Assembly: GCF_002795265.1 (NCBI RefSeq)
Contig: NZ_CP024870.1
Location: 620,001 to 684,000, forward strand
DNA from: Spiroplasma clarkii
GTDB taxonomy: Bacteria > Bacillota_I > Bacilli_A > Mycoplasmatales > Mycoplasmataceae
Length of the DNA stretch: 64,000 bases
Direction: 5' to 3'
Shown here one piece after another: positions 25,780 to 31,085 of the stretch (positions are counted from its first letter, which is position 1; each line of letters opens with the position of its first letter). The translations under genes were made by a program, and so were the position numbers. The notes under the pieces are model-generated. The model saw only the letters and a list, made by a program, of their open reading frames with translations. It searched no databases and was not told where the DNA came from.

Positions 25780-26553
25780 ATGAAAAAAATCCACAGTTTT
25801 GTCACCAAACTAAAACCTTATAAAAGATTGTACAAGATTTTTTGAATGTGCTTTACTATTACTTGCTTGTTTATCTTTCAAATCCTTATGCTAATTTTAG
25901 CATATGCAGTTCCACATCTACGAGGTTCATTTTCTTACTGGTTTGAAGGTTTATATTCATTATTGGTAACTTCTCGAGTTGAGCCAAATTCTGCTCAAGG
26001 TTTTATTTTTGCAGCCACTGTAATTGGGTATATTCCCATTATTCCCATTATTCCCTTTTTGTATTTTACTTTTGCTAATTGATTTATCCAAGAAAAACTT
26101 AGTGATAGGTTTATTGAAGTACCCAAAGAAGATTACTTAAAATGAACAAAGTTCATTCATTTTTCAATTCTGGGTGGGTTATTTATTTTAATTCCTGGTC
26201 TAATAACTTATGCTGGAGGTGGGGGGATTTTACCTCATCAAGCTTTTCATGCAGTGCCTGGAGCAATTTCAGAAGACTTTGCTCAAAGAGCTGCTGGGGT
26301 TTCAGCTGTTTTATATTATGCAGTTGGTTGTCTCTTTACAACCATTATTTTATTATGAACTTTAGGAATGGTATTAGTTTGAGTTTGAGGAAAAATCTCA
26401 GACTTCTTTAGTTATTTGGGAGATTTGCGAGCCCAACGCAAAGATGCTCGACTTCAAGCCAAACATGATAAGTTAGATAGTAAAGTTTCTAAAAGAAAAC
26501 CTCCAAGTAGTAGTGGAGACACAACTCATTTTGATACAAGTGATGATTTTTAA
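25780..26553 (+). CDS. Membrane protein of unknown function
   Basis: A 257-residue protein with about four to five hydrophobic segments and a hydrophilic, Lys/Ser-rich tail (about 210-257) that should be cytoplasmic. A 9-base tandem repeat at 26032-26055 encodes IPIIPIIP inside a transmembrane segment. GTAAGGAGG gives a good ribosome site. I do not recognise the family; it is divergent from ispH, and a shared intergenic region of 98 bases probably holds both promoters. Confidence 0.75.
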
Positions 26554-26582
26554 GTCTAGTCAAAAATTTGGTAGTAATTTTT

Positions 26583-26607
26583 AGTCTAATTTAGTTAGAC
26601 TTTTTTG
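26583..26607 (+). terminator. Terminator after the 25.8 kb membrane protein
   Basis: AGTCTAA (26583-26589) and TTAGACT (26595-26601) with a five-base loop and a T run. Confidence 0.85.
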
Positions 26608-26614
26608 TTATAAT
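26606..26614 (+). promoter_or_regulatory. Extended -10 element before the large lipoprotein
   Basis: TGTTATAAT ends 21 bases before the lipoprotein ATG and directly follows the terminator T run. No convincing -35 box is present. Confidence 0.45.
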
Positions 26615-26635
26615 ATTCAAAAGGGGAGTGGAAGT

Positions 26636-28927
26636 ATGAAAAAATTATTAACAATTTTAATGGCGACTGTAGTAATTTCAGGATCATTAACAAATGTAGT
26701 TGCTTGTAAAAAAGGTATTAATTTAACTAACAACACTCCTGATTCAGTTAGAATGCTTTCAATTACATCATTGAATACAAATATGTTAGTTAGAAATAGG
26801 GTCAAAATTGGAGCTAATATTAGTCAAAGTGATTTAAAAGATTTAATCAAATTGTTGGGTCTAGAAACCTCAATGAACCAAAGTATAAATGGTCCAAGTT
26901 TAGGTTTAAGTTTTAGAGTGGTCTTATTGGCAAATCAACTATTGGGTAATATTTCAGCATCTGTGCCAAACTACCAATGAATTAATTCAAAATTACAATG
27001 ACAATCTTCACGATGAGGTTTTAATCAATTTCTAAGACTTTCTGCAGAACGAGGAATTGCTTCAAATGCCAGTGCTTGGTTACCAACCAATGACGATTTT
27101 TCATTATCTGTAACTTTTTTAGATAGTGAAAAAGCTGGTTGAAAAGGTGCTGGAAATCCAAAATATGCTAGAGTTAACATTAACAAACGCATTGTTGTTG
27201 ATGATAAGGGTATTGTTGATGTACCTAAGTCAAATGCTGATGCAGTTTGGGTTTTACCAAATGCAGATCCAGCAAAACTTAATGCTGCAATTACTGTAGA
27301 GCATTCAACTAACCCTCAAACCCAGAACCGTGGTCATATTTACCAGGGTTTTGTAAATAGTTCAGAATTAATTGATTTACAAGATATTTTTGATGACTCA
27401 ATTACAACTGTTCCAAGTTCAGTTTTTGGATATACTCCATCAGTTGTTGATTTGGTAAACAACATGTTTATTAACTCAAATATTGTAAATAAAGTATTGG
27501 CAGATAACCAAGCAGAAATTGAGGATGCATTAAATGACTACTTAACAAATGAACCAATTTGGTTAGGAAGTAAAGTGATTCTTGAAGATGTTAAAACTAG
27601 ATTAAGAAATCAAATTTTCTTAATGATGTTTAATGGTATGTTAAATCGTTATGACAACAAGTATGATTATAGTGATTCAGATTTAGAATATGCTAACCAA
27701 ATAATGATCACTATTTGAGAAAAAGTTAGAAGTGCAGTATATAGAATTAAAGAATTAGAGCATCTAGAAGATGTTGCAAAACAAAGAGTTCTTGTGTTTT
27801 ATGAAAGTCTGTCTGACAGTCAAGAAAAAGATAGAAATGGTGAACTAACTAGTTCAGAGATTTCAGCAATTATTAATGAACTAAGATATGCTATTAAGAT
27901 TTCAAGAGAGAACGGTACTTTTGGATCAACTGAGGATGACATAGCAGCAATGTCAGAGTTGAAAACTAATTTTTATTACAGTGATATGGATGGAAGAAAC
28001 CATGAAATTAAGTCAATGGCAAATTTATCAAATTTTGGAGCAAACCCATCTCAATTATTAAATATTGGTTACTTTTACCAAAGTCTAGACCCTCTTGAAG
28101 ATAATGTTGATAAGTTAACTTATAGTCCAGATAAAGGCAAAGACCAATGATCAACAGATCAGGAGTTTATCTCAGATGACGGATTTTTAAATGCTTTTTA
28201 TAATGATAGATTTAATAAAATTTATCCAGAAATTGCAAAAGAATCTGGATGAGGTCAAGGAGGTAATGATAAAACTGTTCAGTCTGAACCATTTGACTTA
28301 AGCAAACTAGGAGATGATACTGACTACAGTGATGAAGATTGATTTGCTGGGGCTGGATACTTGGATCAGTTTAAAGTTAATGACAACAATAAAGATGAGA
28401 TCTCAATCGCTATGATGGCAAGGTTAATTTCAGATGGTGCAACTAGACAACTTCAAGATGCCTTCGCTATTGGTTTTGCAGGAGGGATTTCATTTGATAA
28501 TTACTACCAAGGAAATTTCTCATATAGCTTTGAAGATAACAGAAAGGATGATGATGAGGCATTTTTAACTTTAATTACTAGTGAAAATTTTGTTCAATTA
28601 ATTGACTTAGCAAAAAATACTGGCAAATCAAACTTGAGAGATACAATTTATGATTCTGGCTTAGAGTTTGGCTCTGCAGAGATTACTCTTTACATCAATA
28701 ATAGCTTTGATAGCTATGGGAATATAAGACTCCAAGATAAGCCATCACTCACATGATGAAGTCTACAAGACTCAAGCATTGAGAATCATTCATTCAATGT
28801 TATACTAAACATTGACAATGATAAAGGTTCAAAAGGAGCTCTTATTAACTATTGAAAAAGTTGAGTTATGAATAATCCAGATAATTTAGATCACAAGATT
28901 CCCCCACTTGAAAATCCTAGTGGTTAA
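26636..28927 (+). CDS. Large surface lipoprotein
   Basis: A 763-residue predicted lipoprotein. The signal peptide MKKLLTILMATVVISGSL has a lipobox ending in VVAC (C24), so the mature protein is lipid-anchored on the outer face. The remainder is hydrophilic, Asn/Asp rich and contains many TGA-coded Trp; two acidic stretches with SDSDLEY and YSDEDWFAGAGYLDQ occur. No enzymatic motif is evident. It is monocistronic between an extended -10 element and a strong terminator. Such proteins are typical fast-evolving mollicute surface antigens or substrate-binding proteins; the exact role is unknown. Confidence 0.85.
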
Positions 28928-28955
28928 AACACCTTTTTAAAAGGTGTTTTTTTAT
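28926..28955 (+). terminator. Terminator after the large lipoprotein
   Basis: AACACCTTTT and AAAAGGTGTT form the stem, followed by a T run. A second hairpin with arms AAAACCACAC and GTGTGGTTTT lies at 28979-29001 and has T/A tracts on both sides. Confidence 0.85.
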
Positions 28956-28978
28956 TATTAAAAGGAATTGAAGAACTA

Positions 28979-29002
28979 AAAAACCACACAAAGTGTGGTT
29001 TT
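28979..29002. terminator. Second hairpin, able to terminate in either direction
   Basis: A 10-bp stem, AAAACCACAC with GTGTGGTTTT and loop AAA, sits between the lipoprotein terminator and the structured RNA. Its A and T flanks would allow termination on either strand. It could back up the first terminator, or end a transcript coming from the minus strand. Confidence 0.6.
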
Positions 29003-29020
29003 TATAATTATATTATAATC

Positions 29021-29236
29021 AGCAAATGCATAAATGCATCTGTTTGTTGATTTGCTAATAATTAAAAAGATATGAATGAGTAATGAATAAGACTTATATC
29101 AACTCAAGCTCAGGCATTTGATATAAGATAAGTCGAAAGAAAGGATGATATATATTTTTACCCGAATGAAAGTGATGTGTTGGGCAAAAATATAGCCTGA
29201 GTGGTCCGAAAGGACATTCTTAAATATATCATATTC
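29021..29236 (+). ncRNA. Candidate structured noncoding RNA with a pseudoknot
   Basis: No reading frame covers this stretch, yet it is packed with mutually consistent helices. They are: AGCAAAT 29021-29027 with ATTTGCT 29050-29056; CTTATATCAA 29093-29102 with TTGATATAAG 29118-29127 (10 bp); the loop of that hairpin, CTCAGGC 29109-29115, with GCCTGAG 29195-29201 (a pseudoknot); a 13-bp helix 29151-29163 with 29182-29194 having one mismatch; a GTCC-GAAA-GGAC tetraloop hairpin 29204-29215; and an enclosing helix GATATGA 29069-29075 with TCATATT 29229-29235. TATAAT at 29014-29019 could be its -10. It lacks the signatures of RNase P, SRP and tmRNA. The strand is chosen by the promoter and is not certain. 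Confidence 0.6.
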
Positions 29237-29309
29237 TACAAATTTATCAAGTATTTTTGTTAAAAAAATTCAATTTTTTTCAATTTAATGAAATTAGGGG
29301 GGTATCAAT

Positions 29310-29369: not shown

Positions 29370-31085
29370 ATGTGAAATAACATGACAATGTATAAGAAAA
29401 TCTCTGGAACCAATGATTTCTTAGACAATAATCAACAATTGAACTATTTTGATTATTTTGGAATTTCAGGAGCAGATATTAACACAATGATAGTGTTAAT
29501 GAGAGCAAACCTTAATAATATCTCTGCTTTTAAAAATGAATTAGCAGAGAAAATTCACTTTTTATTTAATAGCTATGTTACAAAAATTCAAACAAAAACT
29601 GGAGCAGTAGTTAAAGCAGTGAGCAATAATGCTCTTGAAACTAATCAAGCTTATGTTACTACAGCTTTATACTTGGGAATAAGACTTTTAGCACAAGAAT
29701 TTGTGATGCTAACAAATGTTGATAAAGTAACTTACAAAACTCCAATTACTGTTTTTAAATTCAATCAAGAAAGCCATACTTATCGAGCATATTTGAAAAG
29801 TATTCGTTGCTTTTATGAATCATTAACTGCTTGAACTTTACAATTGCTGAATTTTGATAAAAACACTGCTAGTAATTTTAATTTTATGGATCAAATGATT
29901 GCAGCCAGGGTTTTTGATTTAAAACCCTACAAAAAATTGTTTATGTTAATTTGAATGAGTGGTTATGTTAATCAAATGATTGCAGCAAATGAATTTCAAG
30001 AGCATTTAGGAGTTGAAAATAAAAAAACTTGCACTTTAAATGATGATGCTTTAAACCCAATTAACTTTGACCCTTTATTTGAAGATTCACCAGGGTATGC
30101 TTCAGCTGATGATCTTGCAATTTTAACAAGATTTAGGCAATGAATTGATCACAGTTTTATAGATAATTTAAAAGATAATAAAACAGCAGCACTAGCAAAA
30201 ATTCCTTATAATGATGAAATTTCAGTTGCTGATTATTTTGATTTATTAAAAATAATTGCCATAACATTTTATGATAATAGTGTTTTTGATTTTAAAAACC
30301 ATCAAGATGATTTTATCAACTTAATTTTTGATAGAGGAAAACAAAAATATAGTGTACAAGTCATTAAAAAAGTCTTTTTAGAATTAGTTTATTTACAACA
30401 AGGTTTAACCTCAGGAGAGGTTTTTAACAATTTTGCTGACTTTGGCAGTTACAAAAAACCAATCTTGTCATTTTCAGATAATTTAAACTACCATTATTTA
30501 TGTGCCTTTCCAGAGATTATTTTAATGGGTTCATATTGTCAAAAAGAGTTTGTTTTAATTGCTGAAAATGTTAAAACCAATGTTTTAACTCAATTTCAAG
30601 CACTTGTTAGAAGTAGTGTTGATAAAGTATTTTACAAAATCCCAAAAAGATTTTCAAACATGACAACTTATATACCATCAACAATTCCATTTTTTTCAAA
30701 TAAATATGTTGAGGGGGAAACAGGGTCTTTCCCAAGCATAATTATTTATGAAAAAAACTTGAATAAGTGCTTGATAATAATTGAAAATTTCTATCAAGAA
30801 TCTGCACGTTTATGAACAGATGAAAAAAATGCGATGAACCTATTGGTGGGTAAAAATCCTAAATTTATGAGTATTTTAAATCAAACTTACTATGCTTGAT
30901 TTAAAGATTTTAAGAAATTAAGAAAATCTTTAAAAATCCCAAAAGATGCTGAAATTGAGATTGTAATTGCAGTCAATCGTTCTTTAAAAATAAAGCCAAA
31001 AATAACTGTTGAAGATTGTGTAGTTTATATTATTGATATTGCCTTAATCGATCACTTTTTAACAAACTTTATTTATAAGCGTTAA
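29370..31085 (+). CDS. Hypothetical protein, 571 residues
   Basis: A soluble, mostly helical-looking protein. ATG 29370 follows AGGAGG by about five bases; its second codon is TGA (Trp), so the start would be missed with the standard code. An in-frame ATG at 29382 is an alternative. No signal peptide or transmembrane segment is evident. Landmarks include FDYFGISGADI near the start, a YKKPILSFSDNLNYHYLCAFPEI segment split by a glycine-rich turn, and a C-terminal DCVVYIIDIALIDHF. I recognise no family. It is transcribed alone between its own -10 element and a terminator. Confidence 0.75.

Follow-up and report, generated by a model that had tools for sequence, protein, structure and literature searches.

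The window analysed here is a stretch of 64,000 nucleotides, to whose numbering all positions refer unless a genome coordinate is given, and it belongs to a single-contig Spiroplasma clarkii genome of 1,560,007 bases in which the genes at this place read TGA as tryptophan. Between two protein genes lies an intergenic RNA gene of about 240 nt (Table 1), with which the upstream protein gene is convergent. Two terminators stand side by side there, one of the upstream gene and one of the RNA. With gene, strand and structure taken jointly, we are highly confident that this is a free-standing non-coding RNA gene of the minus strand; comparison of genomes shows the gene, its strand, its structure, its single copy and its conservation. 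No ORF was common to the 21 minus-strand sequences, thus the RNA is non-coding. A small ORF was also considered and rejected: minus-strand ORFs of at least 90 aa overlay the RNA in 4 of 20 ten-kb loci, each of them a singleton judged spurious.

Starting from its 5′ end, the minus-strand RNA is composed of hairpin P5, the 5′ strand of P3, hairpin P4, block A, the 5′ strand of P2, the 3′ strand of P3 lodged in the P2 loop, the 3′ strand of P2, block B, the small hairpin P0 and the terminator. P3 and P2 form the core, an H-type pseudoknot; its first loop contains P4 and the nearly invariant, C/U-rich strand of block A. A first-pass annotation of the sequence had drawn these main helices on the plus strand, and they are indeed present: the perfect 10-bp hairpin (CTTATATCAA with TTGATATAAG, now P2), the pairing of its loop over 7 bp with a site 80 bases away (CTCAGGC with GCCTGAG, now P3) and the 13-bp helix with one mismatch (now P4). 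They go beyond chance and show compensatory changes in homologues, whereas the outermost helix is not conserved; this AGCAAAT...ATTTGCT stem is built partly from the conserved tail, and relatives do not show it in this form. The GAAA tetraloop exists as GTCC-GAAA-GGAC on the plus strand, but the RNA itself has a UUUC loop there, which varies among relatives. The limits first given, 29021-29236, have to be shifted, as the gene extends from about 29216 to about 28978, some 40 nt past the lower limit, and its promoter reaches 29250, past the upper one.

Table 1. Positions in the window of the RNA gene, its structural parts and the adjoining signals.
Feature	Position	Strand	Basis or remark
Whole RNA gene	28978-29216	minus	~239 nt, with its 5′ end at about 29215-29217; judged from promoter, terminator and conserved structure in 21 loci
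-35 box TTGATA	29245-29250	minus	TTG-type box in other loci
Extended -10, TG-A-TATATT	29223-29231	minus	Sequence and comparison of loci
5′ hairpin P5, GUCC-UUUC-GGAC	29204-29215	minus	94.9% of cells paired (helix alignment)
Pseudoknot helix P3, 5′ strand CUCAGGC	29195-29201	minus	Two-sided changes, 8/9 pairs
Hairpin P4 in pseudoknot loop	29151-29194	minus	29182-29194 with 29151-29163; pairing maintained despite sequence change
P4 apical loop	29164-29181	minus	Contains ACAUCACUUUC in many relatives
Block A, unpaired AUCAUCCUUUCUUUCGA	29133-29149	minus	14/15 columns invariant, 20 sequences
Helix P2, 5′ strand	29118-29127	minus	Two-sided changes, 4/6 aligned pairs; plus-strand TTGATATAAG
P3 3′ strand GCCUGAG, inside P2 loop	29109-29115	minus	Covariation
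Helix P2, 3′ strand	29093-29102	minus	Covariation; plus-strand CTTATATCAA
Block B, unpaired tail UUAUUCAUUACUCAUUCAUAUCUUUUUAAUUAUUAGCAAAUCAA	29047-29090	minus	35/38 columns invariant, 20 sequences
Small 3′ hairpin P0 (AUGCAUUUAUGCAU)	29026-29039	minus	By eye, most loci, stems changed
Intrinsic terminator of the RNA, hairpin then U run	28978-29001	minus	Strict rule over 21 loci
Terminator of convergent upstream gene, separate from that of the RNA	28928-28953	plus	Sequence

Strand and transcription signals

The minus strand almost certainly encodes the RNA, because the promoter, the terminator and the balance of G.U and A.C pairs in P2 point there. A script applied to the minus strand found a -35 box and an extended -10 ending 5-7 nt ahead of the 5′ hairpin in 20 of the 21 loci, the best promoter per locus having 15-18 nt between its two boxes and a TG placed two bases upstream of the -10. 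For L006 the script chose another spot, and TTGCAA...TGATACATT can be seen by eye at the usual promoter place. The mean promoter score was 10.95 on the minus strand (shuffles, 8.97) and 8.14 on the plus strand (shuffles, 8.74), where there was no signal above shuffles; as AT-rich sequence scores fairly anyway, with 73% of shuffles at 9 or more, the fixed place of the promoter and its likeness across loci outweigh the score. We consider it a promoter of the housekeeping type. A study on S. melliferum describes promoters there by TAWAAT, a TRTG extension, a TTGACA -35 box and a first base G or A (PMC5138195).

Under a strict rule, an intrinsic terminator follows the RNA in 19/21 loci on the minus strand and in 0/21 on the plus strand. 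L010 and L022 fail the rule, a hairpin with a T run being visible by eye, and in L006 the terminator that was scored is a more distant one. The terminator which the first-pass annotation had set between the RNA and the next gene exists, but it lies on the minus strand and is the RNA's own. For the wobble pairs, G.U and A.C were weighted alike, an A.C on the plus strand being a G.U on the minus strand. Counted on the plus strand, P2 has 24 A.C and 5 G.U, P3 hardly decides the strand (16 A.C, 12 G.U), and P4 leans to plus (30 G.U, 23 A.C). Also, P2 folds better on the minus strand in 17 of 21 loci and on the plus strand in 4.

The fold of segment 28976-29217 gave z = -6.85 on the minus strand and z = -6.12 on the plus strand, and 0/200 shuffles were as good on either; within 29021-29236 the values were -3.57 and -2.84, respectively. 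The absolute folding energy is lower on the plus strand (-63 vs -56 kcal/mol). The plus-strand structured RNA between two plus-strand genes proposed at first can thus claim a stable fold of its own and the slight lean of P4, but the promoter, terminator and P2 wobble counts rule against such a transcript, and we give it hardly any credence. Consequently, expression tests must probe the minus strand.

Covariation and distribution of the RNA

The pseudoknot is supported by compensatory change, and the covariation expected among relatives, should the pairing be real, was found. In the alignment of the 20 sequences of the genus (without L126), P3 has two-sided changes in 8 of 9 pairs and 88.6% of cells paired. 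The joint covariation score of P3 and P5 was 0.324 against 0.155 in shuffles, a value reached by 0/500, and versions slid out of register had 24.5-40.0% of cells paired vs 90.6% in register. Further pair types in P3 and P5 were not above shuffles (15 vs 16.8). P2 was evaluated on 11 of the 21 sequences, L126 being unaligned over it: two-sided changes were seen in 4 of 6 pairs, a number also reached by 148/500 shuffles, and the covariation score was 0.461 against 0.236 in shuffles, reached by 0/500. The helix alignments were made with MAFFT and contain some misplaced rows. An alignment-free comparison of each arm with its own partner and with that of other species gave means of -13.3 vs -6.2 kcal/mol for P2, -14.5 vs -7.9 for P3 and -9.0 vs -4.2 for P4. 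The own partner was best or tied in 8/21 loci for P2, 12/21 for P3 and 10/21 for P4, few loci, because close relatives can share arms.

Sequence constraint is distributed otherwise than pairing. Over 20 sequences, invariant columns numbered 6/14 in P5, 2/51 in the P2 and loop region, 5/81 in P4 and 0/10 in one P3 strand, against the nearly invariant blocks A and B of Table 1. The core of block B is retained in L126, of another genus.

A DNA search (BLAST) recovered the region in every one of the 20 genomes from the genus (g1), and model R1 returned the same 20 genomes and 0 of 40 other genomes of the family at E < 0.01. On those 40, model R2 added G025, from another genus (E 5.1e-6). This match (L107) is a true homologue: its RNA sits at the same place, flanked by homologues of both neighbouring genes seen in the window, and the sequences of P2 and P3 are new there and yet again pair (AATTGTTTT with AAAACAATT; GTCGTAATAA with TTATTACGAC). 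Across the order, model R3 at E 0.01 was positive in 21 of 320 genomes, namely the 20 of g1 and G025, and it found no RNA in the other 299, with stricter filters applied above 40 genomes. Of the 21 sequences that R3 found, 11 had served to build it; the 20 of the genus had been found independently by BLAST, and the 21st by R2. The RNA is thus present in two genera of the 50 in the order search, as a single copy in each of the 20 genomes of the genus. The mollicute-specific distribution supposed at first holds as a restriction to a lineage, but this lineage is narrower.

A sensitive search of 39 genomes of the family's other genera, with the window's genome as control, returned the control alone up to E 0.3. 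Those weaker matches of R1 and R2 in other genera that were inspected were discarded as coding or unrelated sequence in appearance (L071-L073, L075, L097-L099, L108, L109, L111-L114, L116 and L120). An exact-motif scan of named genomes, a collection that may omit near relatives, produced two unrelated records only, and the RNA was not found in the phages, plasmids and viral contigs searched.

Comparison with known RNA families

Neither Rfam (4,227 families) nor ARAGORN gave a match in the window, and Rfam gave none on the loci of seven relatives, including that of G025. At a permissive threshold, 35 weak Rfam matches were obtained, all far under their cut-offs and the best over the terminator hairpins. 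A structured, pseudoknotted, non-coding RNA outside RNase P, SRP and tmRNA, as first described, is therefore borne out by fold, covariation and the Rfam result; nothing in the analysis favours the catalytic role also suggested. The genome carries its RNase P RNA (RF00011) at G000:C1:1165819-1166163, its tmRNA (RF00023) at G000:C1:1463426-1463837 and its SRP RNA (RF00169) at G000:C1:8342-8439. Two adjacent weak matches to the tmRNA model, below cut-off, were seen at G000:C1:1392474-1392631 and are possibly tRNA genes.

Like RNase P RNA, tmRNA and SRP RNA, the new RNA is single-copy, structured and kept by all genomes of the genus; unlike them, it is confined to two genera and differs in sequence and fold. 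It shares with 6S RNA a standalone, structured nature and a similar length, but 6S RNA is a long hairpin with a central bubble, whereas here a covarying pseudoknot is found, and 6S RNA was rejected in the window and at the seven relatives' loci. MCS4 of Mycoplasma capricolum, reportedly a U6-like RNA of about 125 nt, is likewise a small stable RNA of a mollicute. The RsaE/RoxS type, which we take to exemplify the C/U-rich base-pairing small RNAs of Firmicutes, resembles it in having its own promoter and terminator and an unpaired C/U-rich loop able to pair with Shine-Dalgarno sequences; the present RNA differs by its lack of an Rfam match at gathering score, its H-type pseudoknot core, its much longer invariant tail and the candidate status of its targets. 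No earlier report of such a Spiroplasma RNA was present in the literature searched, which covered few subscription papers, so that this absence is not proof that the RNA is unpublished.

Possible function and rival readings

Reduced genomes such as those of Spiroplasma encode few regulators, and to our knowledge regulatory RNAs have hardly been described in this group. A single-copy RNA carried by every genome of the genus, with a pseudoknot and two nearly invariant unpaired blocks, offers a testable candidate for a general regulator. Our preferred reading, a lineage-specific trans-acting regulatory RNA, adds a base-pairing mechanism to the gene, strand and structure, and as a full statement it is put forward tentatively. 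The RNA would act in trans: the pseudoknot would stabilise the molecule and display block A, block A may pair with Shine-Dalgarno sequences and the tail (block B) with leader and start regions, and such pairing would lower the translation of one or more mRNAs. As in trans-acting sRNAs, the RNA seems to be an independent transcription unit, judging from its predicted promoter and terminator, and it has conserved unpaired segments, blocks A and B.

The contrast between invariant unpaired blocks and freely changing helices is consistent with this mechanism. Block A shares UCCUUUCU with the 3′ tail of 16S rRNA (CACCUCCUUUCU), an 8-nt identity with the anti-Shine-Dalgarno tail, so the complement of block A resembles a Shine-Dalgarno sequence. 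For block B, the complement is similar to a leader with AUG, and one leader in the genome (L002, G000:C1:922563-922591), in front of a small ORF and adjoining PTS genes, matches the tail complement at 27 of 29 positions. This site, like the rRNA identity, counts towards the mechanism, and L002 is a candidate target, or a chance match: a Gumbel fit gives about 0.0015 such matches as expected per genome, and the raw shuffles perhaps as many as 0.01, 1/400 of these having reached 46 vs 48 over a fifth of the genome.

Other results count against this mechanism. Over the start regions of 193 sampled genes, drawn from 304,000 bases (~19% of the genome) with a Shine-Dalgarno-like triplet required, which favours block A, pairing did not exceed that seen with shuffled blocks (z = -0.69 in the case of block A and -1.58 in that of the tail, the internal controls giving +1.08 and -1.44). 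No long complementary site recurred across the genus, a secondary tail match being present only in G000 and G003 of the 20 genomes. Moreover, a nearly invariant tail of 38 nt is long for a seed. Pairing with rRNA was rejected, as the best duplexes with the 16S-23S region were no better than those of shuffled blocks. Since the pairing tests gave no proof and L002 does not recur across the genus, regulation by pairing is held at slightly less than an even chance, and a substantial if smaller share goes to a scaffold.

In this main rival, the RNA would be the scaffold of a lineage-specific RNP, and the tail and block A would be protein-binding or structural sites that do not pair with mRNA. The single copy in 20/20 genomes of the genus, the pseudoknot fold, the invariance of 35/38 columns in the tail and 14/15 in block A, and the weak target signal would all fit such a particle; however, the likeness of block A to the anti-Shine-Dalgarno tail suggests pairing, these sequences allow no candidate protein partner to be named, and, the RNA not having been found in the other genera searched, a universal housekeeping role is excluded. 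We think it unlikely that the RNA is a new class of small RNP or a global translation regulator which arose in one Spiroplasma lineage; its pseudoknot would then present a copy of the anti-Shine-Dalgarno tail and a nearly invariant 38-nt strand. If true, that reading would imply a general regulatory role in cells without most transcription factors.

A role in cis seems quite improbable, be it as an antisense or 3′ regulator acting on the convergent upstream gene, or as a leader or promoter element belonging to the divergent one. The end of the convergent gene always lies 76-161 nt ahead of the conserved anchor, in every locus, but a terminator separates the two, and both neighbours switch family across genomes whereas the RNA stays. 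A cis leader or riboswitch was likewise rejected, the next gene along the minus strand being convergent in 21/21 loci, with a terminator between them in 19/21 under the strict rule. On the other, open side, the first gene judged real (n = 20) is F5 in 11 loci, a Cof-type hydrolase in 4 and others in 5, and as this plus-strand gene varies, the RNA is not the leader of one gene.

Several features of the surroundings were observed in passing. Among L032-L050 the open-side genes vary, with F5, a Cof-type hydrolase, PTS-like genes and others; the fixed RNA has a variable site beside it. F5 (29370-31085) encodes a 571-aa protein without Pfam match and adjoins the RNA in many genomes, including G025; it is also retained in G024, which has no RNA, no copy being recognisable upstream of F5 there. 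Positions 25780-28927 encode a membrane-type protein of 257 aa and a lipoprotein-like protein of 763 aa, both without Pfam match and conserved in most genomes of the genus.
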